This document shows positions 607-15,905 of a DNA stretch of 64,000 nucleotides, one piece after another. The notes beneath the pieces were generated by a model that was not told the origin of the DNA, did not search any database, and saw only the letters and a program-made list of their open reading frames with translations. The position numbers and the translations under genes were made by a program. Location: assembly GCF_014697475.1 (NCBI RefSeq), contig NZ_JACJRV010000009.1, positions 1 through 64,000 of the forward strand, in the 5' to 3' direction. Within the stretch, counting starts at the first letter, position 1. The number at the start of each line of letters is the position of its first letter. The DNA is from Nostoc sp. FACHB-152. GTDB lineage: Bacteria; Cyanobacteriota; Cyanobacteriia; Cyanobacteriales; Nostocaceae.

Positions 607-951
607 ATGGCTCGTAAACTTTTAGAACTGAATGCAGATGATGGCGGAACGATTTTGGTAGCAGTTGATGTACCAGATGTATCAGTAGGCCGTGTATCGG
701 CCCCTGGTGAATTGCCTATAGAAAAAGTAGAAGCCAGCTTTGATGCAGTGAGAGATTTGATTGTTCATGGGTGTCGCCCAATTACAAAAGCATTTCGTAC
801 TTTGCAACAAGAATCGCAACCCATGAGTGGAGAAGTTGAGTTTGGCGTGAATTTTACTGCCAAAGGCTCTGTCTATATAGTCGAATCTGCTGGACAAGCA
901 TCACTTAAGGTGAAAATCACATGGAATCTGACACCAGAAGTAAACAAGTAA
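607..951 (+). CDS. Trypsin-co-occurring domain 1 (Trypco1, CU044_2847-type) protein
   Basis: 114 residues. The N-terminus (KLLELNADDGGTILVAVDVP) and the compact all-beta look with a conserved central helix (FDAVRDLIVHGCRPITKAF) resemble the small CU044_2847/Trypco1 family, whose members are encoded next to trypsin-like proteases in predicted bacterial conflict systems. Here the very next gene, 9 bases downstream, begins with exactly such a protease domain, which supports the assignment. The partner role is unknown: it may be a substrate, a sensor or a regulator of the protease. No signal peptide or membrane segment. First gene of a three-gene operon with the two AAA/protease genes. Confidence 0.7.
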   Translation: MARKLLELNADDGGTILVAVDVPDVSVGRVSAPGELPIEKVEASFDAVRDLIVHGCRPITKAFRTLQQESQPMSGEVEFGVNFTAKGSVYIVESAGQASLKVKITWNLTPEVNK

Positions 952-960
952 TAAATTTTC

Positions 961-3096
961 ATGAGTTGGGATTTAGTTAAAGCTTGTACTGTGGCGATCG
1001 CTACTCCAGAAGGCAATATCCAAGGCACGGGCTTTTTCATCTCATCTACAGGACATTTACTCACCTGCGCCCATGTAGTTGAGTCAGTCGGTGGTTGGAC
1101 AAAAGTCCGAATCAATGGTCGGAGAGTTGAGTTAATTTATTTGGGTGATCGCACCAGCGATGATTTTGCCATATTGCAATTACCTGGTTATCAGGGTGCT
1201 TCAGCACCTATATCTTTAAATTTTCAGCCAATGGATCGATTTTTGTCTATTGGCTATGGACGGCTAGATTTTCCTCTAGGCGCTTCGATTGATGGCACGA
1301 TCACTGACATGAACTCCCAGTCTGAATTTGGCAATTTGCCAATGCTGCGATTGCGTGTCAAAGCGAATTCTCAACAGGTACAAGGAGGTTACAGTGGTTC
1401 ACCTGTGTTTGATGCTGAAACTCAACGAGTCATTGGATTAATTGCGGCTTACGACAACACAGAAGGTGCATTGGCTCTACCACTATCGACAGTGTTAGAA
1501 AAATGGTCAAATTTATCAAAGTTTATAGATATTCATCTCAATGTGCCACCATTACCACCAGCCAGCAAAACTGCCAGAGTTTTCATTAGCTATCGCAGTC
1601 AAGATCCAGATTTGAGCCTTGCCCAGAATTTCTACGAAGCTATCAAAGCTGCTGGGCATCAAGTATTCATGGCAGGGGAGAGTATTCGCTTAGGAGAAAA
1701 CTGGCCTCAACGCATTGATAGAGAACTAGAACGTTGTGATTACTTCTTACTGCTGTTGTCTCCACAATCAGCCACTAGCGAAATGGTGACAGAAGAGGTG
1801 AGACGGGCAAAACAGTTGCAGGATTTACGTTCAGAACATAAACCAGTAATTTTGCCGATTCGCGTCAACTTCCCTTGGAGTGAACCACTTAATTATGATT
1901 TGCGAGGTTATTTAAATCAGATTCAGCAGCGAGAATGGAAGTCGCCTGCTGATACTTCTAGAATTTTGCACGAAGTCTTGAGTTTACTGGCAGGTAGTAA
2001 GGAAGCTAAAGACTTCACCACTCACACAGAGGAGAAAATTATCCTTCTGTCTTCAGATCCACCCATGCCAGTAGCAGAACCAGAATTACCTGAAGGACAA
2101 GTGGATTTAGCTTCAAAGTTTTATGTTGAGCGTCCTCCCATTGAATCTCGCTGCCATGAGGCAATTTTGAAGCCAGGTTCTCTGATTCGGATTAAAGCAC
2201 CTCGGCAAATGGGTAAAACCTCTCTCATGGCGCGGATTCTTCATCAAGCTTCACAACAAGATTATTTAACTGTGCCTTTAAGCTTTCAGTTAGCCGACGG
2301 AAAGGTTTTTGCTGATTTGGATAAGTTTCTCCAGTGGTTTTGTGCCAGTATAGGACGGAGGTTAAAGATACCCAACAAGTTAACGGATTACTGGGACGAG
2401 ATTTTTGGTAGTAAAGATAACTGCACTGCTTATTTTGAGGAGTATCTCTTGGCAGAAATCAACCAACCGCTAGTGTTGGGATTGGATGAAGTTGATTGTG
2501 TATTTCAATATCCCGAAATTGCTGCCGACTTTTTTGGACTATTACGCGCTTGGCATGAAGATGCAAAAAATCGAGAGATTTGGAAGAAACTGCGGTTGGT
2601 AGTGGTACATTCGACTGAAGTTTATATTCCTTTGAATATTAACCAATCGCCGTTTAACGTAGGCTTGCCAATTGAATTACCGGAGTTTAATGCCCAACAG
2701 GTTTTGGATTTAGCACAAAGGCACGGACTTGATTGGAATTTTACCGAAGTTGAGCAGTTAATGAGAATGGTAGGAGGGCATCCTTATCTTGTACGGGTAG
2801 CACTTTATCGCATTGCCAGAAAAGATATTACCCTCGATTTGCTTTTACAAAAAGCACCCACAGAAGCGGGGCCTTATAGCGACCATTTACGACGGCATTT
2901 GTGGAATTTAGAACAGCGTCCAGAATTAGCTGCTGCAATTAAGAAAGTAGTTGCCACTACTAGCCCTGTTCGCTTGGATTCGATAGAATGCTTTAAATTA
3001 CTCAGCATGGGCTTGCTACAACAGCAAGGAAATGATGTCACGCCGCGTTGCAATTTGTATCGTCAATATTTCCGCGATCGCCTGAGAGTGAGTTAA
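961..3096 (+). CDS. Trypsin-like protease - TIR - AAA ATPase fusion protein
   Basis: 711 residues in three parts. Residues 1-190 are a trypsin/HtrA-like protease with a complete triad: His38 (TCAHVV), Asp68 (DDFAIL) and Ser145 (GGYSGSPV). Residues 205-345 are a TIR domain ([11 protein letters not shown], ..CDYFLLLLS). Residues 380-711 are an AAA-like ATPase with a Walker A-type loop APRQMGKTS (413-421) and a Walker B strand LVLGLDEVD. The protein is soluble. TIR domains of bacterial immunity usually degrade NAD+ or make signalling nucleotides, and STAND-like ATPases act as the switch; that this protein works so is inference. Its stop overlaps the next start as TAATG, so the two are translationally coupled. 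It likely belongs to a predicted defence module carried as transposon cargo. Confidence 0.85.
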
Positions 3097-5690
3097 TGAA
3101 CGCAGCACCAAACCCAGCCTACGAATATCAAGTCGGAGGAAGTCTGCCAGTAGATGCCCCCAGTTATGTGGTGCGCCAAGCAGATATAGATTTGTATGAA
3201 GCGTTGAAGGCTGGCGAGTTCTGTTATGTTTTGAATTCGCGGCAGATGGGCAAGTCTAGCTTGCGAGTGCAAACAATGCAACGGCTACAAAAGGAAGATA
3301 TTGCCTGTGCTGTGATTGACTTAACAAAAATTGGTAGCCAGTATGTTACACCAGATCAATGGTATGCGGGTGTAGTGCGGATTTTGGTGAGTAGTTTTGA
3401 GCTTGTAAGCAAGTTTAATTTACGTAGTTGGTGGCGCGATCACGATCATCTTTCTCCATTACAGCGATTAAGCGAATTTTTTGAAGAAGTTCTGCTGGTT
3501 AAAATTTCTCAACCCATTGTCATTTTTGTAGATGAAATCGATAGCGTTCTCAGCCTAAATTTTGCGACTGACGACTTTTTTGCATTAATTCGAGACTGTT
3601 ATAACCAGCGTGCCGATAAACCAGAATACAAACGGCTGACGTTCGCCCTGGTTGGTGTCGCCACACCTTCAGATTTGATTGCCGATAAAAGGCGCACACC
3701 TTTTAATATTGGTCGTGCCATTGAAATCAACGGTTTTCAAGTCGATGAAGTTGAACCATTAGCCCAAGGATTGGTGGGGAAAGTTAGCAATCCCCAAGCG
3801 GTGCTGCGTGAGGTGTTGGCTTGGACAGGCGGGCAACCTTTTCTGACACAGAAGCTTTGTGAATTGATTCGCCAGGGAATGGAGGCAGGGAAAGTTGCAG
3901 AATTAGTGCGATCGCATATCATTAACAATTGGGAATCTCAAGATGAACCAGAGCATTTAAAGACGATACGCGATCGCATTCTTAGGGATGAGCAACGTGC
4001 AGCAAGGCTGTTGGGGTTGTATCAGCAAATTTTGCAGCAAGGAAAAGTAGCCGCTGATGACAGTTCCGAACAAATGCAACTGCGGCTGTCGGGTTTAGGA
4101 GTCAAGCGTCATGGAGAGTTAAGCGTTTATAACCGGATTTATCAGTCAGTTTTTAACACTAACTGGGTAGATAAGGCATTAGCAGATTTGCGACCTTACG
4201 CTAAAGCAATAGCGGCGTGGTTCGATTCTAACTGTCAAGATGAATCTCAACTACTAAGAGGACAAGCCCTGATAGATGCTCGAAATTGGGCAGTTGATAA
4301 AAGCTTAGGCGATGCGGATTATCAGTTTTTAGCTGCTAGCCAGGAGTTAGATAGACGAGAAATGCAAATTGCTTTTGAGGCTGAGAAGCAGGCAAAGCAA
4401 ATATTGGAAGAAGCGCAAAAAAAAGTAGAAATAGCCTTGGAAAAAGAAAGGAAAGCAAATCAAAGACTTAGAAAGACACAACAGAAAACAGAGCGAACAC
4501 TTCGTAGAGGTTTGATTGGGTTAGCTGGGATTTCTATGGTGGCAGCAAGTACAATCTTGCTAACAGCTAGAAATATTGAAAATACATATGAGCTAACTCC
4601 ACGAACTTCATCAACTTCATTAAGTGTATCTCAGAAATTAGGAATATTCATCAAACCATCTGTAGTAAGAATTTTACGCTCTTGCAGGGGTATATTTCAA
4701 TATAAACAGAAAACCTATTCGGTTGAAAAAACCTCCATTGGTTCAGGTTATTTTATAAATTCTAATGGCTATATAGTAACCAGCGCACATCTGGTAAAAT
4801 CAGTAGAACTTGTAAAACAAGAATGTGAACCCCTGCTTTTAAACCAACTAGTCAAAGATATCATTTCAAAATATCCAGGTGAAGTTGAAGAAGATATAAA
4901 AAGAAACAAGCAATCTTTGGAATTTAACTTTTTAAACTATGTATTACTGCCAAATATGGATGGTTTTTGGCCTTTTGAATTGAAATTAATCAGTACACGT
5001 GCAAGCTTTCAAGATGTTGCAATTATCAAAATTGAGATTAAAAATGCCCCAACCCTGAAATTAAGAGATTCAGATACGGTACAGTTATTGGATGATGTCT
5101 TAGTTATTGGATATCCATATGCTGGCGATATTGGTGATGAACTAAAAGCGGAGTCAATTTCAGAAGCCAGCGTAAGTGAAGGTAAAATTTCAAATACTAA
5201 AAAAAAGTTATCAAATAATTCCCCAGTACTCCAAATTGATGTATTAGCCGATAAGGGTAGTTCAGGCAGCCCTGTACTAAACTATAAAGGTGAAGTGATT
5301 GGTATGATCGCGCGTGGTGGCAGAGATGAGGATGAAGAAACTTTCATACCCTTTGCAATACCCGCAAACACGATTCAGGAATTTATTAGGAGAGCCGGTA
5401 CTGTAAATGAGCAAGGCGTAATTGACCGTCTTTATCGCGAGGGTCTCGAATTGTATTGGAAGGGAGATTATAAGGGAGCTAAAGCAAAGTTTGAAGTTGT
5501 TAAGGGACTTTTTCCGCAACAATCGGAGATAGATCAACTCATCCGTGACAGCGATCAAAAAATTGCTAATTGGTATTCATCAATATCAATCGTAAGTTTA
5601 ATTAGTATTACACTTATCATTACAACTATACTCTCACTTAGCTATTTTCTGATGCTGCTTAGATCAAGTCAATCAACTAATTCGAGATAG
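3096..5690 (+). CDS. AAA ATPase - transmembrane - trypsin-like protease protein
   Basis: 864 residues from the ATG that overlaps the previous stop (TAATG). An in-frame start 48 bases earlier is possible but would run deeper into the upstream gene. Order: AAA-like ATPase with Walker [10 protein letters not shown] (47-55) and Walker [13 protein letters not shown]; charged coiled coil (about 420-470); membrane segment (about 472-492); trypsin-like protease (about 515-765) with His in TSAHLV (about 563), Asp in FQDVAIIK and Ser in GSSGSPV (about 720); a TPR-like pair of helices; and a second membrane segment (about 832-855). With the ATPase in the cytoplasm the protease would lie on the far side of the membrane. 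It shares the ATPase type and protease class with its neighbour, as if the two were built from one toolkit. Confidence 0.82.
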
Positions 5691-5824: not shown

Positions 5825-8179
5825 TCAAGCTGCTATGTCCTGTGAATACAAATACTGCTGAAACCCGATAAATACTTCACTAATATTCGCAACGCTTCCT
5901 AGCTCTTCAACAGCATCACGAACGGTATGGTATTTCAACTCTAACAGTTGAGGTAATTTAGTGCGATCGAGTTCTCCCACTCCGGCTTTGATGTATTGCT
6001 CTAGTACAAAGTCAAGAAATTCTTGCTGTTTGCCGAGATACTGCGAGAATATTAAAGACTTGTGAGCAAGGACACGCTCTCGTCGGCTAATGGGTGGAAA
6101 GGCATAAGCGATATAAGCCAGTACATCGTATAAATCGCTTTTCTCGGCATCAATCAAGCGGCTAATTTCTGTAAGTTGTTCCTCCCCGTAGCCCTTCTCT
6201 GCTAGTCCTTCTAATAAAGCTCTACGAGTATCAGGGCGACTCCAGATGGCTCGTAGCTGGTCTTCGTCTTTGAATAGCTCAGGAATTTCTCCAAACAAAC
6301 GTTCTACAAATTCTGCTGCACTCATGGGTTTACCGTTTGGACTCCAAAAGCTGGTAGAAATCCGGTGTTGGAGGGTGCGTTCTTTACCGTCAGCGAGTTT
6401 GATTTTGATGGTTTTGGGGCGGTAATCTTCTGTACTTTCGTTTCTATTGTTGCTTCTATCTTTGCCACTATCTGCTGTGGAGGTATTGTATTTATCTGAT
6501 TTCTCCCCACCTTTGGAAATTGTAACTACACCAGGTTCTTGGGGTTCGCCGTCCCATTCAGGATCGTCGAAGCGTTCGTAGGCTTTGACAAAATCATAAA
6601 TGGTGAAGTAGTCCTTCCCTTCAAATAAGCGAGTACCGCGACCAATAATTTGCTTAAATTCAATCATCGTGTTGATGGGACGCATCAGCACGATGTTGCG
6701 AACATTCCGAGCATCAACCCCAGTGGACAGCTTGTGGGAGGTGGTGAGAATAGTGGGGATAGTTTTTTCGTTATCTTGAAAGTTTTTGAGGTGCTGTTCT
6801 CCCAGTTTGCCATCATCGGCGGTGACCCGGACACAGTAATTAGGGTTACTGCTAATCTTCATTTGATTGATTAAATCCCGCACAGCTAGAGCATGGGGTT
6901 GGTTAGCACAAAACACCAGAGTTTTTTGATTCTGGTCAATTTCTTCCATGAACAGTTGCACTCGGTAACGTTCGCGCTCGGCAATTTCGATGATGCGGTT
7001 GAAGTCGGCTTCAGTATATGTTCTGGCTTCGTCTACTGCACCTTCAATCAGTTCATCTTCACTGCTGTAAATATATTCGTCCAGGGTGGTTTCGATTTGC
7101 CTGACTTTAAAGGGAGTCAGAAAACCATCATTAATGCCGTCTTTGAGGGCATAGGTATAGACTGGCTCGCCGAAGTAGGCGTAGGTGTCTGCGTTGTTTT
7201 TTCGTTTAGGAGTAGCGGTGAGTCCCAGTTGTACTGCTGGGGAGAAGTATTCTAAGATGCCCCGCCATGTGCTTTCGTCACTGGCTCCGCCTCGATGACA
7301 TTCATCAATGATGATGAAGTCAAAGTAGTTAGGGGGATAGTCGCTGAATTTGGGCGTAGAATTGCCAGCGTCGTCCCGTCCGGTCATAAATGTCTGGAAA
7401 ATGGTAAAAAAGATACTACCATTTTTGGGGACTCGACCGCGTTTTTTGATGGCTTCGGGATCGATGCGGACTAAGGCATCGTCAGGGAACGCAGAGAAAG
7501 AGTTATAGGCTTGGTTGGCTAAGATATTGCGATCGCTTAAAAACAAAATTCGCGGACGACGGGTAGGTTGTCTGCTGAGGTTCCAACGACTTTGAAAGAG
7601 TTTCCAGGCGAGTTGGAAGGCGATGAAGGTTTTACCTGTGCCAGTTGCCATTGTTAACAAAATCCGGTTTTGTCCTTGGCAGATTGCTTCTAGGACGTGC
7701 TTAATGGCATTGTGTTGATAATAACGGGCTTCCCATGTGCCGCTTTTGTCTTCAAAGGGGATGGCAGCAAAGCGATCGCGCCACGCATTATTTTCGCTAA
7801 AGGTCGCTTCCCACAGTTGCTCTGGGGTAGGATATTGCTTGATGTAGCCTTCTGCCCCTGTGAACATATCTACTTGGTATATACCGATGCCATTTGTAGA
7901 GTAGGCAAATCGAGTCTGCAATTTTTCGGCGTATTTTTTGGCTTGTCCTAAACCTTCGGTATCTGGTAAGTCACGTTTTTTCGCTTCGATGACTGCGAGT
8001 TTTTCACCACGATGAACCAGGACATAATCGGCGATGTCTGATTGAGCGCGTCTACCGTTGCCAATTAATCGACCAGGGGCAATAACTTCGCGGCGAATGC
8101 GACTACCTTCGATAACTCCCCAGCCTGCGGCTTTGAGTGCGGGGTCAATTAGTTCGGCACGGGTTTCGGCTTCGTTCAT
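5825..8179 (-). CDS. hsdR: Type I restriction enzyme R subunit (HsdR)
   Basis: 784 residues. The N-terminal part is an HSDR_N nuclease domain with the PD-(D/E)XK pattern Asp51...Glu65-Ala-Lys67 (IEAKK). It is followed by an SF2 translocase: Walker A MATGTGKT at 177-184, a DECH box (IIDECHRG), motif III LTATPKR, motif VI QIIGRGTRL, and a C-terminal helical region. With HsdM and HsdS it forms the enzyme that pumps DNA and cuts unmodified DNA away from the recognition site. Last gene of the minus-strand operon; its ATG overlaps the DUF1016 stop (TAATG). The length fits the shorter HsdR class with C-terminal EcoEI-type helices. All motifs look intact. Confidence 0.93.
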   Translation of the reverse strand: MNEAETRAELIDPALKAAGWGVIEGSRIRREVIAPGRLIGNGRRAQSDIADYVLVHRGEKLAVIEAKKRDLPDTEGLGQAKKYAEKLQTRFAYSTNGIGIYQVDMFTGAEGYIKQYPTPEQLWEATFSENNAWRDRFAAIPFEDKSGTWEARYYQHNAIKHVLEAICQGQNRILLTMATGTGKTFIAFQLAWKLFQSRWNLSRQPTRRPRILFLSDRNILANQAYNSFSAFPDDALVRIDPEAIKKRGRVPKNGSIFFTIFQTFMTGRDDAGNSTPKFSDYPPNYFDFIIIDECHRGGASDESTWRGILEYFSPAVQLGLTATPKRKNNADTYAYFGEPVYTYALKDGINDGFLTPFKVRQIETTLDEYIYSSEDELIEGAVDEARTYTEADFNRIIEIAERERYRVQLFMEEIDQNQKTLVFCANQPHALAVRDLINQMKISSNPNYCVRVTADDGKLGEQHLKNFQDNEKTIPTILTTSHKLSTGVDARNVRNIVLMRPINTMIEFKQIIGRGTRLFEGKDYFTIYDFVKAYERFDDPEWDGEPQEPGVVTISKGGEKSDKYNTSTADSGKDRSNNRNESTEDYRPKTIKIKLADGKERTLQHRISTSFWSPNGKPMSAAEFVERLFGEIPELFKDEDQLRAIWSRPDTRRALLEGLAEKGYGEEQLTEISRLIDAEKSDLYDVLAYIAYAFPPISRRERVLAHKSLIFSQYLGKQQEFLDFVLEQYIKAGVGELDRTKLPQLLELKYHTVRDAVEELGSVANISEVFIGFQQYLYSQDIAA

Positions 8180-9225
8180 TATGGCTCATCTCTCGAATAT
8201 GGGAGTCGGCGGCGAGCAGAGGCGATCGCTTCTTGCAGTTTAGCTTGTAACACCTCTTTCGGTGGTAATACGGTGAGGTATTCGGCAACGTGAATACCGC
8301 TTTTATCTAGTTCTAATAATTCGATTTGCTCTTGCTTTTTACCTGCACATAAAATAATTCCTAGTGGTGGCTGTTCGTCAGGCTCTTGGTCATATTTAGC
8401 CAGCCAGCGCAGGTAAAGTTCCATTTGTCCTTTATATTCGGGTTGGAAGCTACCTAGTTTGAGGTCAATGGCTACAAGGCGTTTGAGTTTGCGGTTATAA
8501 AATAACAGGTCAATATAAAAATCATCGTTGTCGATTTGCAGGCGTTTTTGACGGGCGATGAAGGTAAAGCCTGCACCGAGTTCTAGTAAAAATTGCTCAA
8601 TTTCTCTCAGTATGGCATCTTCGAGGTCTTTTTCGAGATAGCGATCGCTCAATTCCAGAAAATCTAAAATATAAGGGTCTTTGAGTAAAATATCGGGTGA
8701 TACCTGTTGAGTTTGGCGCAGTTGCTCTAAATCATTGCGGATGGTTTCTTCGGGTTTCCGGGATAGGGCAGTACGCTCAAATAGCATAGAGTTAATGCGT
8801 TCTTGCAGTTGGCGGACGCTCCATCGTTCCAGTTGGGCAATTTCAATATAAAATTCTCGTTTTAGGGGATCGTCTATTGCTGTTAAAAGTCGCAGATGTG
8901 ACCAACTCAATTTGGAACACAGTGTGTTCACAATCTCGATATTTGGAAATGTCTCGGCAAACTGGAGGCAATGTCGCAGTTGTCTTTCACCCCAGCCTTT
9001 ACCATAGGTTTGGGTTAGCTGCTGAGATAAAGAAACAATGATTTGTTTACCATATTCAGCGCGTTGACCTTGTAAAACTTCGGTTTGGATGCGTTTACCA
9101 ACTTGCCAATATAACAAAGTTATTTCTGCATTGATGGCAACGGCGGCGCGTTGTTTGGCAGTGTCGATCAGTTGACGGATTTCTTGAAATAATAGATCGT
9201 TTGGTTGCGTCAAATCATCGCTCAT
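8179..9225 (-). CDS. DUF1016 / YhcG-type PDDEXK nuclease
   Basis: 348 residues. The N-terminal part (1-170) matches the DUF1016 helical domain (YWQVGKRI, YGKQIIVSLSQQL, GWGERQLRHCLQF). The C-terminal part is a PDDEXK nuclease fold with the core FYIDLLFYNRKLKRLVAIDLKLG split around Asp and D-x-K; the usual (D/E)XK Glu is Asp here. Such proteins often sit inside type I R-M operons, where their job is not settled. Its start overlaps the hsdS stop by 4 bases and its stop overlaps the hsdR start, so all four genes are tightly coupled. An accessory nuclease of the R-M system is the likely role (inference from position). Confidence 0.85.
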   Translation of the reverse strand: MSDDLTQPNDLLFQEIRQLIDTAKQRAAVAINAEITLLYWQVGKRIQTEVLQGQRAEYGKQIIVSLSQQLTQTYGKGWGERQLRHCLQFAETFPNIEIVNTLCSKLSWSHLRLLTAIDDPLKREFYIEIAQLERWSVRQLQERINSMLFERTALSRKPEETIRNDLEQLRQTQQVSPDILLKDPYILDFLELSDRYLEKDLEDAILREIEQFLLELGAGFTFIARQKRLQIDNDDFYIDLLFYNRKLKRLVAIDLKLGSFQPEYKGQMELYLRWLAKYDQEPDEQPPLGIILCAGKKQEQIELLELDKSGIHVAEYLTVLPPKEVLQAKLQEAIASARRRLPYSRDEP

Positions 9226-10442
9226 GCTGCCATTTCCTGTTTAGCAGTTTTTGGGGTATCTGCGGTGAGTTCGCCAGTGAATGCTTTTTGCAGGATGGAT
9301 TGTTTGAGTTCGTTGAGTGCAGCGATTTTTTGGCGGTAAATGGTTTCGAGGCGACCAATTTTTTCTGATAAGGCATCGAGTTCAGCGACAATTATTTCCT
9401 GTTGTTCTTTAGGGATTTTAGGAACAGAGAAACGCCGAAGTCCACTCAGAGAAACTGTTTTTTGTGCAGTACCCGTGGCACATTCATCAGCTTGAGCCAA
9501 AAGATAACGTGATAAAAGTATGTAATACAAACATTTTGAATTAGTTTCAGCGTTTGGTCTTATCAACCCAATATGTCGCTGAAAGCAAAAATCAATATCA
9601 TGATCAACGATAACTGGAATTCCATACGAACCAGTAACTGTGTAGAGCAAGTCACCTTTACGCGGTTTTCTATTGCTCTTTAGCTTTTCAAAATATTCAG
9701 GTGGAACCTTAAATGTATTAGAGAAATCAACTTTCCGATTTTGTTTATCTATGTTCGATATTGTAATAAACGGAATGCCAGATTGTGATTTAGGCGGAGG
9801 TTGATGATCTCCATCAGTAATATCCGTTGTTATCTCAGACAAACTGATCCATTCCCACCTGTTGTTTTTCTGGGTAAAAATGGAATTTAGATAGCTTTCA
9901 AATAGTTCACGGGAGTTAGCGAGGTTCTTTTCGGTGTTTGCGATCGCTCTATCAATCCCCTCAAACGCCTCATCCAAAATTGCCACAATTCGCTTTTGCT
10001 CAGATATCGGTGGAACAAAAATAATCTGCTCCTTAAAAATTTTATGCGTAATATCTGGTTGTGCTGTTCTTGAAGCTAATTTTAAAATTTGGTTTTTAAA
10101 GCTCTCACTCTGCAAAAACCAAAAAAGATACTCTCTGAGCAAAGACTTGTCAGGTTCAATTTTAAAGCTGTTATTGTGTAAAATTCCAAACCTTCCAGTA
10201 AAAACCAGCCCAATTTGTCCTGTTCTTGTATAAATCAAATCCTTCTCAGTAACTAAACAGTTTTTTGGATAATTATTTGGATCGACATATTGTTCTACTG
10301 TGTTATTTTTCAGATCCTTGATTCTCAATAGTGGCAAATCACTTTTTTCAACTAGATAATGTTTTGTTTTGACATTAATTGCTAGTCCTTGAGAAAGTTT
10401 GCACACTTCTCCTATCTTCTTCCTTTCCCAGTTATTCTTCAC
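9222..10442 (-). CDS. hsdS: Type I restriction enzyme specificity subunit (HsdS)
   Basis: 406 residues with the two-TRD layout. A first target-recognition domain (1-150) is followed by a conserved helix (PPISEQKRIVAILDEAFEGI), and a second TRD (200-340) by a second helix (EQQEIIVAELDALSEKI) and the tail LKQSILQKAFTGEL typical of HsdS. It sets the DNA sequence recognised by the methyltransferase and the restriction complex. It overlaps hsdM by 4 bases (ATGA) upstream and the DUF1016 gene by 4 bases downstream. The TRDs appear AT-richer than the rest, as usual for exchangeable specificity domains. The recognition sequence cannot be read from the protein. Confidence 0.93.
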   Translation of the reverse strand: MKNNWERKKIGEVCKLSQGLAINVKTKHYLVEKSDLPLLRIKDLKNNTVEQYVDPNNYPKNCLVTEKDLIYTRTGQIGLVFTGRFGILHNNSFKIEPDKSLLREYLFWFLQSESFKNQILKLASRTAQPDITHKIFKEQIIFVPPISEQKRIVAILDEAFEGIDRAIANTEKNLANSRELFESYLNSIFTQKNNRWEWISLSEITTDITDGDHQPPPKSQSGIPFITISNIDKQNRKVDFSNTFKVPPEYFEKLKSNRKPRKGDLLYTVTGSYGIPVIVDHDIDFCFQRHIGLIRPNAETNSKCLYYILLSRYLLAQADECATGTAQKTVSLSGLRRFSVPKIPKEQQEIIVAELDALSEKIGRLETIYRQKIAALNELKQSILQKAFTGELTADTPKTAKQEMAA

Positions 10443-11953
10443 AGCCTTCCCCCAATACCCGCCAAAATCTCTGCACTCTCTGCATCCAAGGCCGCAATTT
10501 CATCCAAAATTTCCTGCGGTTCTCGTAACGTCGATTCCTCTGCTTTATTTGGATTCTTCACCGACAAATCGAACGTCTCCCGATCCACATCAGCAATATC
10601 CACCAGCCAAGACTTTTCTGTTTCCGCAAACCTAGCCTGTAACTCCACAAACTCGCGCAAATCCTCATCATTCAGGGAATTGGTTTTACCCATATTCCGC
10701 CCCGGATCGAGTTGATAATACCAAATTTTCTGAGTAGCCATCCCCTCAGTTAAAGGTTTCCCCTGAGAAAATAAAGGCGTTCCCTGAACGGAGTCAAAGG
10801 GCTTTCCTTTCTCAAAAAACAGCACCACCGTCTTCACCCCCGCCCCGATAAAAGTCCCACTTGGACAATCCAAAATCGTGTGCAGATTGCAACTACTCAA
10901 AAGCTCTTGACGCAACCCCCGCGAAGCATTGTCCGAATTTGACAGGAATGTATTTTTTATTACCACCGCCGCCCTACCGCCTATCTTCAGCATTTTGATG
11001 AAATGCTGCAAAAACAGAAACGCCGTTTCCCCAGTCTTAATCGGGAAATTCTGCTGTACTTCCTTGCGTTCCTTACCCCCAAATGGCGGATTAGCCAAGA
11101 TGACATCAAAACGATTCTTGTCTTGAATATCACTGAGATTTTCCGTCAGCGTGTTGGTGTGGATAATATTCGGCGCATCAATGCCATGCAAAATCATATT
11201 CATGATGGCAATCACATACGCCAAACTTTTCTTTTCTTTACCCGTAAACGTATGTTTCTGAAGAATCTCAAGTTCTTTTGTTGTCAGCTTACCCCGACGT
11301 AAATAGTCATAACTTTCACACAAAAACCCAGCCGAACCACAAGCACCATCATAAATGCGATCGCCAATCTTCGGCTTCACCACCTGAATTATTGCTCGAA
11401 TCAACGGACGCGGTGTGTAATACTCACCCCCATTGCGTCCTGCATTGCCCATATTTTTGATTTTGGCTTCATAGAGATGCGATAGCTCGTGTTTCTCCTG
11501 TTGGGATCGAAACCGTAGCTCATCAACATACTCCAGCGCATCTCGCAAGCTGTAACCACTTTGAAACCTATTCTTAATCTCGCTAAAAATTTCCCCAATC
11601 TTGTATTCGATTGTGTCTGGACTAGTAGCCCGTTCCTTAAAACTTTGTAAATACGGGAATAATTTGCGGTTGACATAATCAATCAGATCATCGCCAATCA
11701 GCGCATTATCATCATCCAATGTGCCATCCGCTTTTTTCGGTGCTGCCCAAGATGACCAGCGATGCGCCTCATCAATAATAAATTCGTATTGCTTGCCAGC
11801 TAACTCCGCCTCTAACGCCCTTTCCTGCTCCAAATCATCCAAATACTTCAGAAACAGCAACCAAGACGTTTGCTCGGTGTAATCTAACTCTGTAGTACAA
11901 CCCGCCTCTTTCCAGAGAACATCATCAATATTTTTAAAAGTCTGCTCGAACAT
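10439..11953 (-). CDS. hsdM: Type I DNA N6-adenine methyltransferase (HsdM)
   Basis: 504 residues. An N-terminal helical HsdM_N domain (WKEAGCTTELDYTEQTSWLLFLKYLDDL) spans about 1-140 in part, followed by a class I methyltransferase with the SAM loop DGACGSAGFL (202-211) and the catalytic NPPF (288-291), marking it as an N6-adenine enzyme. First gene of hsdM-hsdS-DUF1016-hsdR. Oddity: residues about 384-406 (GKPFDSVQGTPLFSQGKP..) look like an in-frame insertion between FFEKG and TQKIWYYQLD, two blocks that normally lie close together; the motif PFDSVQGT is typical of palindromic repeats that jump into genes. The catalytic parts are untouched, so the enzyme is probably active. Confidence 0.93.
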   Translation of the reverse strand: MFEQTFKNIDDVLWKEAGCTTELDYTEQTSWLLFLKYLDDLEQERALEAELAGKQYEFIIDEAHRWSSWAAPKKADGTLDDDNALIGDDLIDYVNRKLFPYLQSFKERATSPDTIEYKIGEIFSEIKNRFQSGYSLRDALEYVDELRFRSQQEKHELSHLYEAKIKNMGNAGRNGGEYYTPRPLIRAIIQVVKPKIGDRIYDGACGSAGFLCESYDYLRRGKLTTKELEILQKHTFTGKEKKSLAYVIAIMNMILHGIDAPNIIHTNTLTENLSDIQDKNRFDVILANPPFGGKERKEVQQNFPIKTGETAFLFLQHFIKMLKIGGRAAVVIKNTFLSNSDNASRGLRQELLSSCNLHTILDCPSGTFIGAGVKTVVLFFEKGKPFDSVQGTPLFSQGKPLTEGMATQKIWYYQLDPGRNMGKTNSLNDEDLREFVELQARFAETEKSWLVDIADVDRETFDLSVKNPNKAEESTLREPQEILDEIAALDAESAEILAGIGGRL

Positions 11954-12220: not shown

Positions 12221-12394
12221 TTAACTCCCCTGCGACTTTCTATCAGTAGGGGAATCTTTTTTTTGCAACCAATCTCTAATCGCTTCCTCCAAAGCCGCAG
12301 TCTGTGTGATTTCCAGACGCGCACAGGCAATTTCAAATGCGATTTTTAAGTCTTTAGGGAGTCTCCCCCGAACTTCTCTTGTTTCTTCTGCCAT
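12221..12394 (-). CDS. Arc-like ribbon-helix-helix repressor next to cas12k
   Basis: 57 residues, ATG at 12394, TAA at 12221. The N-terminus EVRGRLPKDLKIAFE has the strand-then-helix start of ribbon-helix-helix (Arc/MetJ) proteins; it is followed by helix IACARLEITQTAALEEAIRD and a polar tail. It is divergent from cas12k, with 162 bases between the starts. V-K CASTs commonly carry a small regulator (MerR-type CvkR, Xre or Arc-like) at this position that represses cas12k, so that role is likely here. A direct repeat overlapping the cas12k promoter (12463-12488) is a candidate binding site. The family is recognised from fold pattern and position, not by search. Confidence 0.75.
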   Translation of the reverse strand: MAEETREVRGRLPKDLKIAFEIACARLEITQTAALEEAIRDWLQKKDSPTDRKSQGS

Positions 12395-12556: not shown

Positions 12557-14464
12557 ATGAGCGTTATTACAATTCAATGTCGCTTGGTCGCCGAAGAAAA
12601 AACCCTCCGCACTCTGTGGGAACTTATGGCTGGCAAAAATACACCACTTATCAATGAACTATTGGCACAGGTAGGAAAACACCCAGAATTTGAAACCTGG
12701 CTAAAAAAAGGCAAAATACCTACTGATTTACTTGAAACACTTGTTAATTCCCTCAAAACTCAAGAGCATTTTGCTAATCAACCTCACCGCTTTTACGCTT
12801 CCGCGATCGCTCTAGTAGATTATTTATATAAATCCTGGTTCGCTTTACAAAAAAGAAGGAAGTATCAAATAGAAGGGAAAGAACGTTGGCTCAAAGTTCT
12901 CAAAAGTGATATTGAACTGGAACAAGAAAGCCAGCGTAGCTTAGAGGTAATTCGTACTAAAGCCACCGAAATTCTTACCAAACTTACTTCCCAGTCCGAG
13001 CAGAATAAAAACCAGAGAAAACGCAAACAAACTAAAAAACCTAAAAAGTCCGAGAAACCTTCGCTTTTTCAGATTGTTTTAAATTCTCACGAAGAAACAG
13101 ACGACCCTCTTATTCGTTGCGCTCTTGCATATCTGCTCAAAAATAATTGTCAAATTAGTGAACTTGACGAAGACCCAGAAGAATTTACTAGAAAAAAACG
13201 TAAAAAGGAAATAGAAATTCAACGATTAAAAGACCAACTCCAAAGTCGCATACCTAAAGGTAGAGATTTGACAGGGGAAGAGTGGTTAGAAACTTTAGAA
13301 ATAGCTACGACCACTGTACCTCAAGATGAAAATGAGGCAAAAGCTTGGCAAGCATCACTTTTAAGAAAAACTGCTGATGTCCCCTTTCCTGTAGCTTACG
13401 GTTCTGGCGAAGATATGACATGGTTGCAAAATGATAAAGGTCGCTTCATTGTTCGATTCAAGGGTTCAAAAGAACTAATCTTTGAGATTTACTGTGATAA
13501 GCGTCATTTGCACTACTTTCAGCGTTTCCTAGAGGATCAAGAAATTAAACGCAACAGTAAAGATAAACACTCAAGCACTTTGTTTACGTTACGCTCAGGA
13601 AGGCTTGTTTGGTTGCAAACAGACCAAAAAGGCGAAGCCTGGAAAGTAAATCAACTGAATCTTTACTGTGCTTTAGATACTCGATTGTTGACTATTGAAG
13701 GAACTCAACAGGTAATTGAAGAGAGAGTCAGGAAAATTACTAAAACTTTAGCGAAAGAAAAAACCAAAGAAGACCTCAATGCTCAAAAACAAGCTTTTAT
13801 TACTCGTCAGAAATCAACGCTAGATCGAATTAATAACCCTTTCCCTCGTCCCAGTAAGCCTAATTATCAAGGGCAATCCTCCATTCTTGTTGGCGTTAGT
13901 TGTGGTCTAGAAAAGCCAGTAACAGTAGCTGTAGTGGATGTTGTTAAAAATGAAGTTCTAGCTTATCGCAGTGTCAAACAACTACTTGGCAAAAACTACA
14001 ACCTTCTCAATCGCCAGCGACAACAACAGCAACGCTTATCTCACGAACGCCATAAAGCTCAGAAAAAGAATGCGCCAAACTCCTTCGGAGAATCAGAGTT
14101 AGGGCAATACGTGGATAGATTATTGGCTGATGCAATAATTGCGATCGCCAAAACCTATCAAGCAGGCAGCATAGTGATGCCAAAACTCCGCGATATGCGT
14201 GAGCAAATCACTAGTGAAATCCAATCCAGAGCAGAGAAGAAATGCCTTGGTTACAAGGAAGCTCAACGCAAATATGCCAAAGAATACCGTATAAGCGTTC
14301 ATCGCTGGAGTTATGGTCGATTAATTGAAAGTATTAAATCCCAAGCTGCAAAAGTCGGAATTTCTACTGAAATTGGTACACAGCCAATCAGAGGGAGTCC
14401 ACAGGAAAAAGCGCGTGATTTAGCCGTCTTTGCATACCAAGAACGTCAAGCTGCTTTAAGTTAA
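12557..14464 (+). CDS. cas12k: Cas12k, nuclease-dead type V-K effector
   Basis: 635 residues, close to the 639 of the ShCAST protein, with strong resemblance along the whole length (N-terminal SVITIQCRLV, NTPLINELL, PKGRDLTGEEWLETL, GLYC-type core, LLGKNYNLLNRQRQQQQRLSHERHKAQ, VHRWSYGRLI, PIRGSP). It binds crRNA and tracrRNA, finds a GTN PAM and recruits TniQ/TnsC/TnsB for insertion without cutting. The RuvC centre is degenerate as in other Cas12k: GVSCGLEK (about 446) has Ser where active enzymes have Asp, and VMPKL (about 540) has Pro where Glu is expected. Start chosen at the ATG 5 bases after a GAGGA ribosome site. The gene is followed by tracrRNA and the array on the same strand. Confidence 0.96.
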   Translation: MSVITIQCRLVAEEKTLRTLWELMAGKNTPLINELLAQVGKHPEFETWLKKGKIPTDLLETLVNSLKTQEHFANQPHRFYASAIALVDYLYKSWFALQKRRKYQIEGKERWLKVLKSDIELEQESQRSLEVIRTKATEILTKLTSQSEQNKNQRKRKQTKKPKKSEKPSLFQIVLNSHEETDDPLIRCALAYLLKNNCQISELDEDPEEFTRKKRKKEIEIQRLKDQLQSRIPKGRDLTGEEWLETLEIATTTVPQDENEAKAWQASLLRKTADVPFPVAYGSGEDMTWLQNDKGRFIVRFKGSKELIFEIYCDKRHLHYFQRFLEDQEIKRNSKDKHSSTLFTLRSGRLVWLQTDQKGEAWKVNQLNLYCALDTRLLTIEGTQQVIEERVRKITKTLAKEKTKEDLNAQKQAFITRQKSTLDRINNPFPRPSKPNYQGQSSILVGVSCGLEKPVTVAVVDVVKNEVLAYRSVKQLLGKNYNLLNRQRQQQQRLSHERHKAQKKNAPNSFGESELGQYVDRLLADAIIAIAKTYQAGSIVMPKLRDMREQITSEIQSRAEKKCLGYKEAQRKYAKEYRISVHRWSYGRLIESIKSQAAKVGISTEIGTQPIRGSPQEKARDLAVFAYQERQAALS

Positions 14465-14498
14465 CTCAACAATCCGAACCTTGAAAATATAATATTGT

Positions 14499-14763
14499 TG
14501 TAATAGCGCCGCAGTTCATGCTCTTTTGAGCCAATGTGCTGTGAAAAATCTGGGTTAGTTTGGCGGTTGGAAGACTGTCATGCTTTCTGACCCTGGTAGC
14601 TGCCCGCTTCTGATGCTGCCATCTGTAAAATTTTATAGATGGGATAGGTGCGCTCCCAGCAATAAGAAGTAAGGCTTTGAGCTATAGCTGTTATTCATAA
14701 CGGTGTGGATTACCACAGTGGTGGCTACTGAATCACCCCCTTCGTCGGGGGAACCCTCTCAAA
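14499..14763 (+). ncRNA. tracrRNA of the V-K CAST
   Basis: Begins 35 bases after cas12k. It keeps the signature segments of V-K tracrRNAs: AATAGCGCCGCAGTTCATG near the 5' end, CTTTCTGACCCTGGTAGCTG in the middle, GGATAGGTGCGCTCCCAGCA, and the 3' stem around CACCCCCTTCGTCGGGGG leading into the anti-repeat AACCCTCTCAAA (14752-14763), then a T-run. It pairs with the crRNA repeat and scaffolds Cas12k. The ends are estimated from these landmarks; the 5' end may vary by some bases. Confidence 0.9.
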
Positions 14764-14959
14764 TATTTTTTTGGCATATCGAAGCGGGGTCAAAAACCCT
14801 GGAGACTTGCCAAAATCTTAAAACCCTTGTCATATCTTAACTTTAGAAACTAGTATGTCAGTTGATTTACTTTTTTGATGTAAGACAAAGGAGGCTTTTT
14901 CAGAGATATGCCAAATTTGTATCTGGAAAGCTTTATTTACAAGGGGTCTAGACGGCGGG
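14764..14959 (+). promoter_or_regulatory. CRISPR leader region
   Basis: About 196 bases between the tracrRNA and the first repeat, AT-rich, without a credible gene. By position it is the leader and may carry an array promoter, or the array may be co-transcribed with tracrRNA; no clear -10/-35 pair was assigned. Confidence 0.4.
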
Positions 14960-15507
14960 GTTTCAACAACCATTCCGGCTAGGGGTGGGTTGAAAGATTC
15001 TTTACGCGCATTGCTACGCACTAAAAAAGCAAGTTTCAACAACCATTCCGGCTAGGGGTGGGTTGAAAGAATATACCTAGTTGCTCTGTAACTCAATGGC
15101 TACGTTTGTTTCAACAACCATTCCGGCTAGGGGTGGGTTGAAAGATTCATCAAGACTATAGATGCCGTGATACAGTACCGTTTCAACAACCATTCCGGCT
15201 AGGGGTGGGTTGAAAGATCAAACCGCTTCCCTTTCTTTGGATGGCAGCACTGTTTCAACAACCATTCCGGCTAGGGGTGGGTTGAAAGAATATAGAAACG
15301 ATAAGCGGAATGTAGAAATCGCTGAAGTTTCAACAACCATTCCGGCTAGGGGTGGGTTGAAAGGAAGCAAGATCGTTCAACACCACTACCCCAGATAGGT
15401 TTCAACAACCATTCCGGCTAGGGGTGGGTTGAAAGGGCAGGACAACTTTGGCTAAATGGCGTGTTGTTTGGTTTCAACAACCATTCCGGCTAGGGGTGGG
15501 TTGAAAC
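14960..15507 (+). CRISPR. CRISPR array, 8 repeats of 37 bp, 7 spacers
   Basis: Repeats start at 14960, 15033, 15108, 15180, 15252, 15327, 15399 and 15471. Each begins GTTTCAACAACC and ends GGTGGGTTGAAAG, the V-K type repeat. The seven spacers are 36, 38, 35, 35, 35, 38 and 35 bases. Copies 1-7 are identical; copy 8 ends in C instead of G, as expected for the leader-distal degenerate copy. No cas1/cas2 lies nearby, so new spacers must come from another system in trans or none at all. No spacer was seen to match the window, but I could not search thoroughly. Confidence 0.98.
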
Positions 15508-15509
15508 AG

Positions 15510-15542
15510 AAAAGACTCACAAGTAATTCTCGTGAGTCTTTT
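15510..15542 (+). terminator. Intrinsic terminator after the CRISPR array
   Basis: A perfect 11-bp stem: AAAAGACTCAC (15510-15520) and GTGAGTCTTTT (15532-15542), loop of 11 bases, three bases after the last repeat. It ends the array transcript and therefore separates it from the delocalised guide further on. Confidence 0.75.
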
Positions 15543-15604: not shown

Positions 15605-15638
15605 TTTGAGAGGGTTGAAAGGCGCACTTCGTTCGGGA
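15605..15638 (+). ncRNA. Delocalised short crRNA that targets tRNA-Pro (homing guide)
   Basis: A truncated repeat TTTGAGAGGGTTGAAAG (15605-15621) is followed by the 17-base spacer GCGCACTTCGTTCGGGA (15622-15638). The spacer is identical to minus-strand bases 15883-15867 inside the tRNA-Pro gene, and the match stops exactly after 17 bases. Such short, separate guides directing V-K CASTs to tRNA genes are known. It lies 97 bases past the last array repeat and beyond the array terminator, so it likely has its own promoter. TTTGAGAGGGTT is the exact reverse complement of the tracrRNA anti-repeat. Confidence 0.92.
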
Positions 15639-15700
15639 ATATTCTGAACTTTTTAGCATATTCTACAAGTGTAGTGGAATCACTCCACCACATCACAGTT

Positions 15701-15823
15701 GCGACATTAATTTGCGAAAACTTAGTATAATCTAAGTTGATTGCAAAAAACAGTCAAAGCGACACTAATTTGCAAAAAACGACATTAATTTGCAAATTGC
15801 GACATATAATGTGCGAATGTACA
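15701..15823 (-). repeat. Transposon end with four TnsB-type binding sites
   Basis: Four related motifs of the form GACA(T/C)TAATTTGC occur with GACA at 15703, 15761, 15781 and 15801. The outer three are spaced exactly 20 bp; the outermost runs into the terminal TGTACA (15818-15823). Arrangement and terminus resemble the ShCAST left end as I recall it. The bases just outside, AAAAC (15824-15828), are the predicted 5-bp target duplication. Confidence 0.88.
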
Positions 15824-15831
15824 AAAACATA

Positions 15832-15905
15832 TCGGGATGACTGGATTCGAACCAGCGGCCCCTTCGTCCCGAACGAAGTGCGCTACCAAGCTGCGCTACA
15901 TCCCG
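15832..15905 (-). tRNA. tRNA-Pro (anticodon CGG)
   Basis: Cloverleaf read on the minus strand: acceptor CGGGATG/CATCCCG, D-arm GCGC...GCGC, anticodon stem CTTCG/CGAAG with loop TTCGGGA giving anticodon CGG and G37, T-arm with GGTTCGAATCC, discriminator A. CCA is not encoded. The gene is intact and serves as the attachment target of the CAST, whose end lies 8 bp beyond its 3' end. Transcription from this gene would run into the transposon end. Confidence 0.96.
15867..15886 (-). other. Protospacer and GTA PAM of the homing guide
   Basis: Bases 15867-15883 (minus strand) equal the 17-base delocalised spacer and cover the anticodon arm of tRNA-Pro. The preceding three bases (15884-15886) read GTA on the minus strand, which fits the GTN PAM of Cas12k. 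Sixty bases (15824-15883) lie between the PAM and the transposon terminus. Confidence 0.92.

Follow-up and report, generated by a model that had tools for sequence, protein, structure and literature searches.

The left end of the transposon lying beside tRNA-Pro(CGG) raises two questions, namely whether a 17-nt identity between the element and this tRNA gene represents the guide by which the element homes, and what could separate such a home-site guide from the guides of the CRISPR array next to it. Both were addressed in the window, i.e., the whole stretch of 64,000 nucleotides that was analyzed, and in Cas12k loci from the same and from other families.

The left end of the element and its guide to tRNA-Pro(CGG)

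The 17-mer GCGCACTTCGTTCGGGA at positions 15622–15638 (plus strand) is the reverse complement of positions 15867–15883 (inverted pair I5, 17 nt, 100%), a minus-strand protospacer within tRNA-Pro(CGG), whose intact gene occupies positions 15832–15905 of the minus strand with its 3′ end towards the transposon (ARAGORN; RF00005, 64.7 bits). The three bases located 5′ of the protospacer (minus strand, 15886–15884) read GTA, guide base 18 (15639, A) is unmatched against a C on the protospacer strand, and 60 nt (15824–15883) lie between this PAM and the element terminus TGTACA (15818–15823, plus strand). These readings of an earlier note on this DNA are confirmed by the letters themselves, as is its count of exactly 17 matching nucleotides, which is true to the base but which, being the norm of the family (39 of 49 exact guides stop at 17), adds no evidence of its own. 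A search of the whole genome (8,618,724 bases in 190 contigs) returned the 17-mer at these two places only, even with two mismatches allowed, and shuffled windows yielded a mean of 0.03 chance matches to the guide at three or fewer mismatches.

The guide is preceded by TTGAGAGGGTTGAAAG (15606–15621, plus strand), the truncated repeat designated R*; the crRNA start near 15605 proposed earlier lies one base ahead of the segment of R* that pairs with the tracrRNA (15606–15616). The 17-mer is the delocalized (anchor) guide of a type V-K CRISPR-associated transposon (CAST), the anatomy of which has already been published. According to the accessible part of PMC9938897, the left end of V-K elements is situated beside a tRNA gene, an R* of ~12 nt is followed by a 17-nt anchor spacer, the PAM is GTN, the distance from PAM to left end is 46–82 nt, and a regulator gene is reversed next to cas12k, while the accessible part of PMC11406308 states that almost all att-site crRNAs are truncated and separate. 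The window contains Cas12k, a truncated repeat with a 17-nt guide near the left end and a reversed regulator; its PAM, GTA, is of the GTN type, and its 60 nt fall within 46–82. The site is very probably the left end of a type V-K CAST beside its attachment site, with homing directed by the R*-guide crRNA, a reading that is well supported and not new.

The cas12k gene (12557–14464, plus strand; NF038191, 949 bits against a cut-off of 150; PDB Cas12k chains, 786–787 bits) is adjoined by a reversed gene (12221–12394, minus strand) for a ribbon-helix-helix protein of 57 residues (PF21432, 55.9 bits), a likely CAST regulator whose position is that described in the accessible part of PMC9938897. It is followed on the plus strand by a tracrRNA with approximate limits of 14495–14790, placed from a promoter-like site (14466–14493) and the anti-repeat and represented by a homologous segment in the survey loci described below, and by a CRISPR array of eight 37-nt repeats and seven spacers (14960–15507). 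The left end itself (15698–15823, plus strand) carries repeated motifs, including repeat D4, which by analogy would be TnsB sites, and AAAAC (15824–15828, plus strand) occupies the expected place of the 5-bp target duplication. Between the array and the homing guide lies a strong plus-strand hairpin (15510–15542; −15.7 kcal/mol, z −4.4) that may separate the array transcript from the homing-guide transcript; a terminator-like hairpin is present in this place in three of 67 loci. A further plus-strand terminator-like hairpin and T run (15631–15654), with the guide's 3′ half inside the hairpin and TTTTT behind it, may define the 3′ terminus of the homing crRNA, and near-identical sequence occurs 3′ of the guide in L136 and L119. 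The promoter- and terminator-like sites are consensus matches only.

The cargo, as assigned by Pfam, comprises a plus-strand segment (607–5690) encoding a Trypco1 protein and its trypsin/TIR/AAA_35 and AAA_35/trypsin partners, which may have a role in defense, and a minus-strand type I restriction-modification segment (5825–11953) encoding HsdR, a YhcG-like nuclease, HsdS and HsdM.

Anchor guides in other Cas12k loci

The survey comprised 82 loci, i.e., the window, the second CAST of its genome (C186) and 80 loci fetched from Cas12k matches in 192 genomes of the window's family. These 80 were chosen by hand among the matches listed, each reaching the end of the profile, with partial matches, most interrupted ones and the full-length G215:C201, G206:C73, G017 and G088 left out; L097 and L098 are from one genome and alike. 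Anchor guides were sought by locating TTGAAAG, with up to one mismatch, and testing whether the next 17 nt recur inverted outside the element, at no more than two mismatches in total and no more than one in the first six positions, and with no PAM required. A guide of this kind was found in 73 of the 82 loci, and all 73 have a GTN PAM though the search did not require one; the nine loci in which no anchor was found are L094, L117, L120 and L164, which are short stretches at contig ends, and L155, L160, L163, L168 and L170. The target overlaps a tRNA gene in 63 of the 73 anchored loci, and an exact TGTACA lies 40–67 nt from the PAM in 48 (in three loci with two TGTACA 40–90 nt from the PAM, the farther one was counted). 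In control comparisons, array spacers (17-mers adjoining repeat ends in these elements) found a match in the outer flank in 0 of 375 cases, and guides set against flanks belonging to elements aimed at other targets did so in 20 of 876.

Guide and target match exactly in 49 of the anchored loci, and the 39 of these in which the match stops at 17 nt are close to expectation if the base past a 17-nt guide matches one time in four. Among 42 distinct pairs of guide and target, mismatches are confined to positions 7–17, most often position 15, with none at positions 1–6, as a PAM-proximal seed predicts, the search having admitted at most one mismatch at positions 1–6 and two overall. The earlier note had held that the same guide in CASTs inserted elsewhere would speak against homing; the window guide is carried by 13 of the 82 elements, and all 13 lie at tRNA-Pro(CGG). 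Furthermore, in a held-out set of 40 loci (20 + 20), all from outside the window's family and with other matches left out, anchors were found in 33, of which 32 have a GTN PAM and one a TTC (L290, dropped), and the exact sequence of the window guide recurs in L259, L278 and L279.

The guides directed to tRNA-Ala(CGC) in L101, L110, L116, L121, L130, L141 and L145 mismatch their target at position 15, where they carry A, G or T, and that of L169 matches exactly; at the position-15 site this target holds GCGATCGC, a common cyanobacterial palindrome known as HIP1. On a Cas12k tree of 81 rows, 75 of them different, constructed by a quick method after the interrupted L150 had been dropped, the minimum number of changes is 50 for the guides and ten for the tRNA-Pro target, which agrees with the statement in the accessible part of PMC11406308 that att sites may differ even among close relatives.

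Pairing of the tracrRNA anti-repeat with homing and array repeats

The anti-repeat AACCCTCTCAA (14752–14762, plus strand; inverted pair I4) is a perfect 11-bp complement of TTGAGAGGGTT (15606–15616), which is part of R*, whereas each of the eight array repeats has GGGGTGGGTTGAAAG or -AAAC as its last bases and mismatches the anti-repeat from the first base before GGGTT. The duplex with the anti-repeat is computed at −18.1 kcal/mol for R* of the window and at −10.9 kcal/mol for its array. Anti-repeat, R* and array were readable together in 59 survey loci (the 73 anchored loci minus eight with no anti-repeat by pattern and six with no array). R* forms the stronger duplex in 51 of these, and in 52 the base before GGGTT is paired in R* and unpaired in the array, while in the remaining seven neither is paired (four loci), only the array is paired (two) or both are (one). 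Four of these seven exceptions to the one-base rule belong to the ShCAST-like clade, where they account for four of six readable rows. Taken separately, this base is paired in R* of 59 of 65 loci and in 23 of 320 single array repeats.

The anti-repeats fall into two main classes, AA(C/T)CCA (class A, 33 loci) and AA(C/T)CCT (class T, 32 loci). The former is found mostly with R* GGTGGGTT and array GGCGGGTT, the latter mostly with R* GGAGGGTT or AGAGGGTT and array GGTGGGTT. The identical tRNA-Pro guide is shared by both classes, and in 12 of 12 cases the diagnostic base of R* fits the tracrRNA of the same locus; since one guide thus stands behind two R* types, each fitting its own tracrRNA, it is the tracrRNA that R* follows, irrespective of the guide. 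The same division is seen in mean duplex energies, class A R* giving −15.6 with anti-repeats of its own class and −9.8 with those of class T, and class T R* giving −14.2 and −10.4, respectively. By the same computed measure, the arrays of class T loci form a stronger duplex with class A anti-repeats (−15.3) than with those of their own class (−12.2). Only about two changes of the anti-repeat base are seen on the Cas12k tree, and the covariation between tracrRNA and R* was put to an independent-pairs test that, with two pairs only, was uninformative.

The one-base prediction, which had been fixed beforehand, was half borne out in the held-out loci (R* paired in nine of ten, array unpaired in five of nine), because several of these lineages differ at another base. 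A symmetric measure, chosen after that result, was the longest Watson-Crick match anchored at the conserved TT. In the 23 held-out loci with anchor, array and tracrRNA stretch, this run is longer for R* in 20, for the array in none, and tied in three; in the first survey (n = 65) the corresponding counts are 48, seven and ten, the array being favored in L104, L111, L115, L138, L149, L172 and C186. Sign tests give 2e-6 for the held-out loci and 1e-8 for the survey, values that are overstated, the rows being related. Mean run lengths in held-out and survey loci, respectively, are 7.5 and 7.4 nt for the element's own R*, 5.5 and 5.9 nt for foreign R*, and 4.7 and 5.1 nt for the array. Perfectly matched forms include AGCGAGTT, GGTGGATT, GGTGAATT and AGCGGGTT, and therefore the core changes together too. 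When pairing was allowed anywhere in the tracrRNA, energies barely separated R* from the array (40 versus 24 in the survey; 12 versus 11 held-out).

Judged by sequence comparison, the tracrRNA of many V-K CASTs fits the homing repeat better than the array repeats, and this is possibly a new observation: no mention of the fit was found in the literature searched, including the accessible parts of PMC9938897 and PMC11406308, and prior publication in primary papers is possible. By analogy with the family, a short crRNA composed of R* and the 17-nt guide would load with the tracrRNA into Cas12k, the complex would bind tRNA-Pro(CGG) beside the GTA PAM, and TniQ, TnsC and TnsB would insert the element at a distance of ~60 bp, beyond the 3′ end of the tRNA; the tRNA itself stays intact. 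The fit to the anti-repeat would give the homing crRNA a firmer duplex and array crRNAs would be left for other targets; that the firmer duplex indeed gives the homing crRNA preference over array crRNAs is a tentative proposal, to which we assign slightly less than an even chance.

Three accounts of the fit may be compared. In one, which we favor tentatively while stopping just short of an even probability, the tracrRNA of most V-K CASTs has co-evolved with the homing repeat and away from the array, such that anti-repeat pairing sorts homing from array crRNAs. In another, R* fits because it is truncated, a longer 3′ helix compensating in stability for the lost 5′ part without any role in the choice of guide; R* does retain just a short 3′ piece of the 37-nt repeat, and array repeats are about equally strong in duplex energies over the whole tracrRNA, yet a need for stability leaves unexplained that in 56 of 59 loci the array leaves the diagnostic base unpaired, and mostly by different letters in each anti-repeat class (C facing A, T facing T), and we consider this account rather doubtful. 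It is also conceivable, if unlikely, that array repeats drift from the tracrRNA while being held to a host CRISPR repeat that supplies adaptation, R* remaining free to track the tracrRNA. This would accord with a suggestion relayed in the accessible part of the review PMC11406308, that type I-D adaptation serves V-K arrays in trans, but the array repeat of the window occurs nowhere else in this genome within three mismatches.

Occupation of the tRNA-Pro site and relation to known systems

The window begins at the start of its contig (C180), and neither TniQ nor TnsB was found on that contig. A separate 5-kb contig, C74, carries tnsB, tnsC and tniQ adjoining a right end, in the order and orientation of a type V-K CAST, and this right end resembles the left end of the window in 23 of 25 terminal bases. 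C74 is probably the other half of the window element, as judged from TnsB and end similarity, because its TnsB is closest to those of the G133 (88%) and G005 (83%) elements, and these also align to the window in the cas12k region and at the left end. The 5-bp flanks, AAAAC at the window and GCAAC at C74, do not repeat one another, the link between these separate contigs resting on the similarities just given. A target duplication was sought in nine element pairs, both ends being placed only in window/C74, G133 and G005; none was found in G133 (AAAAA/TAATT) or G005 (TCGAC/TAATT), the right termini of which may be misplaced because similarity runs ~8 bp beyond TGTACA.

The earlier note had proposed a survey of related strains for the empty tRNA-Pro site. 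Six relatives (L018, L019, L021, L022, L023 and L025) have a common upstream neighbor of tRNA-Pro, the likeness of L025 being only 71% over 911 bp, and in none of the six was a TGTACA-like end found in the 400 nt before the tRNA gene. These relatives show no CAST end there, but their neighbor was not found in the window genome in a search made without a positive control, and no tRNA was seen within ~1.5 kb of mtnP, the gene flanking the C74 end, in 15 relatives examined. No clean empty-site comparison could therefore be completed, and the pre-insertion junction could not be shown.

Signs of successive CASTs at one tRNA-Pro, i.e., a remnant terminus beside the present one or ends without matching duplications, are seen in L119, L126, L161 and the tRNA-Pro loci L017–L045. 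Upstream of tRNA-Pro in L017, an R*-like segment is followed by GCGCACTTC and then by divergence, ahead of a TCTACA end, and this segment looks like a decayed homing unit.

How the element came to lie at this tRNA may be weighed against two alternatives to a single guided insertion. That the 17-nt identity is a product of chance, or a tRNA-derived duplication with no guide role, is exceedingly improbable: mobile elements may carry tRNA fragments, and nothing beyond that possibility speaks for it, whereas the uniqueness of the 17-mer, the adjoining R*, the PAM, the distance and the recurrence of anchors in 73 of 82 loci speak against it, and the survey contradicts it. Far more serious, with a likelihood not far below one half, is the alternative that there was no single guided insertion, the element having replaced, nested in or recombined with an older CAST at the tRNA, in which case the guide match would reflect homing of the lineage only. 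The AAAAC/GCAAC mismatch itself means that the site may be rearranged or occupied more than once. A matching duplication is missing from all three elements with both ends placed (the window with C74 as its probable partner, G133 and G005); the present terminus of G005 is 66 nt from the PAM, and at 60 nt, immediately outside it, there is a remnant reading TCGACA, which is the type of terminus that other tRNA-Pro CASTs, among them L126 and L161, have; and four of 26 loci, one of them the window, have an exact TGTACA end no more than 12 nt from tRNA-Pro. A series of elements occupying the same tRNA in turn would account for these oddities of flank and remnant, without being proved by them. Against this, the guide match and the PAM-terminus distance of 60 in the window are those of direct insertion, C74 and the window are joined by similarity across separate contigs, and in G133 and G005 the right terminus may be placed some bases off.

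In their letters, guide, PAM, distance and target make up a homing unit in the window, and its tracrRNA is fitted to R*; from the former we infer that the element arrived by this guide. The guide-directed homing advanced in the earlier note is upheld by match, PAM, distance and survey, with the insertion event itself deduced and AAAAC not repeated at the flank of C74. The window guide is one more clear instance of a homing mechanism already known. If true, the tracrRNA match would provide a simple answer, testable at one base, to the problem of how a CAST with a single effector keeps its safe home-site guide apart from array guides, and it suggests that tools derived from V-K elements might be tried with the homing repeat instead of the array one.

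The genome of the window harbors a second, more distant V-K CAST, C186 (L013, 6878–15525), which has its own exact 17-nt guide to tRNA-Ala(GGC) and a different form of tracrRNA, with R* matching it no better than the array does. With published V-K CASTs, as far as the accessible parts of the sources describe them, the window element has in common Cas12k, an array, a truncated repeat with a 17-nt spacer near the left end, a GTN PAM, a tRNA target at a distance of 46–82 nt and a reversed gene for a small DNA-binding regulator. It differs from them in its tRNA-Pro(CGG) home, in its type I restriction cargo and in that its other half is seemingly on a separate contig, without a matching target duplication. 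The ShCAST-like clade (PDB 7pla, ShCas12k; 7n3o, Cas12k) shares the effector family of the window at 786–787 bits, but the ShCas12k chains are much closer to the element L111 (1184 bits), and it is the clade of L111 that holds four of the seven breakers of the one-base rule. Since the near clade of ShCAST mostly breaks this rule, work based on ShCAST could have missed the fit. Type I-F3b CASTs with atypical crRNAs likewise possess a separate, repeat-diverged att-site guide, yet the accessible part of PMC11406308 ascribes sorting in those systems to TniQ together with effector and crRNA, whereas for the V-K elements described here pairing with the tracrRNA is proposed.
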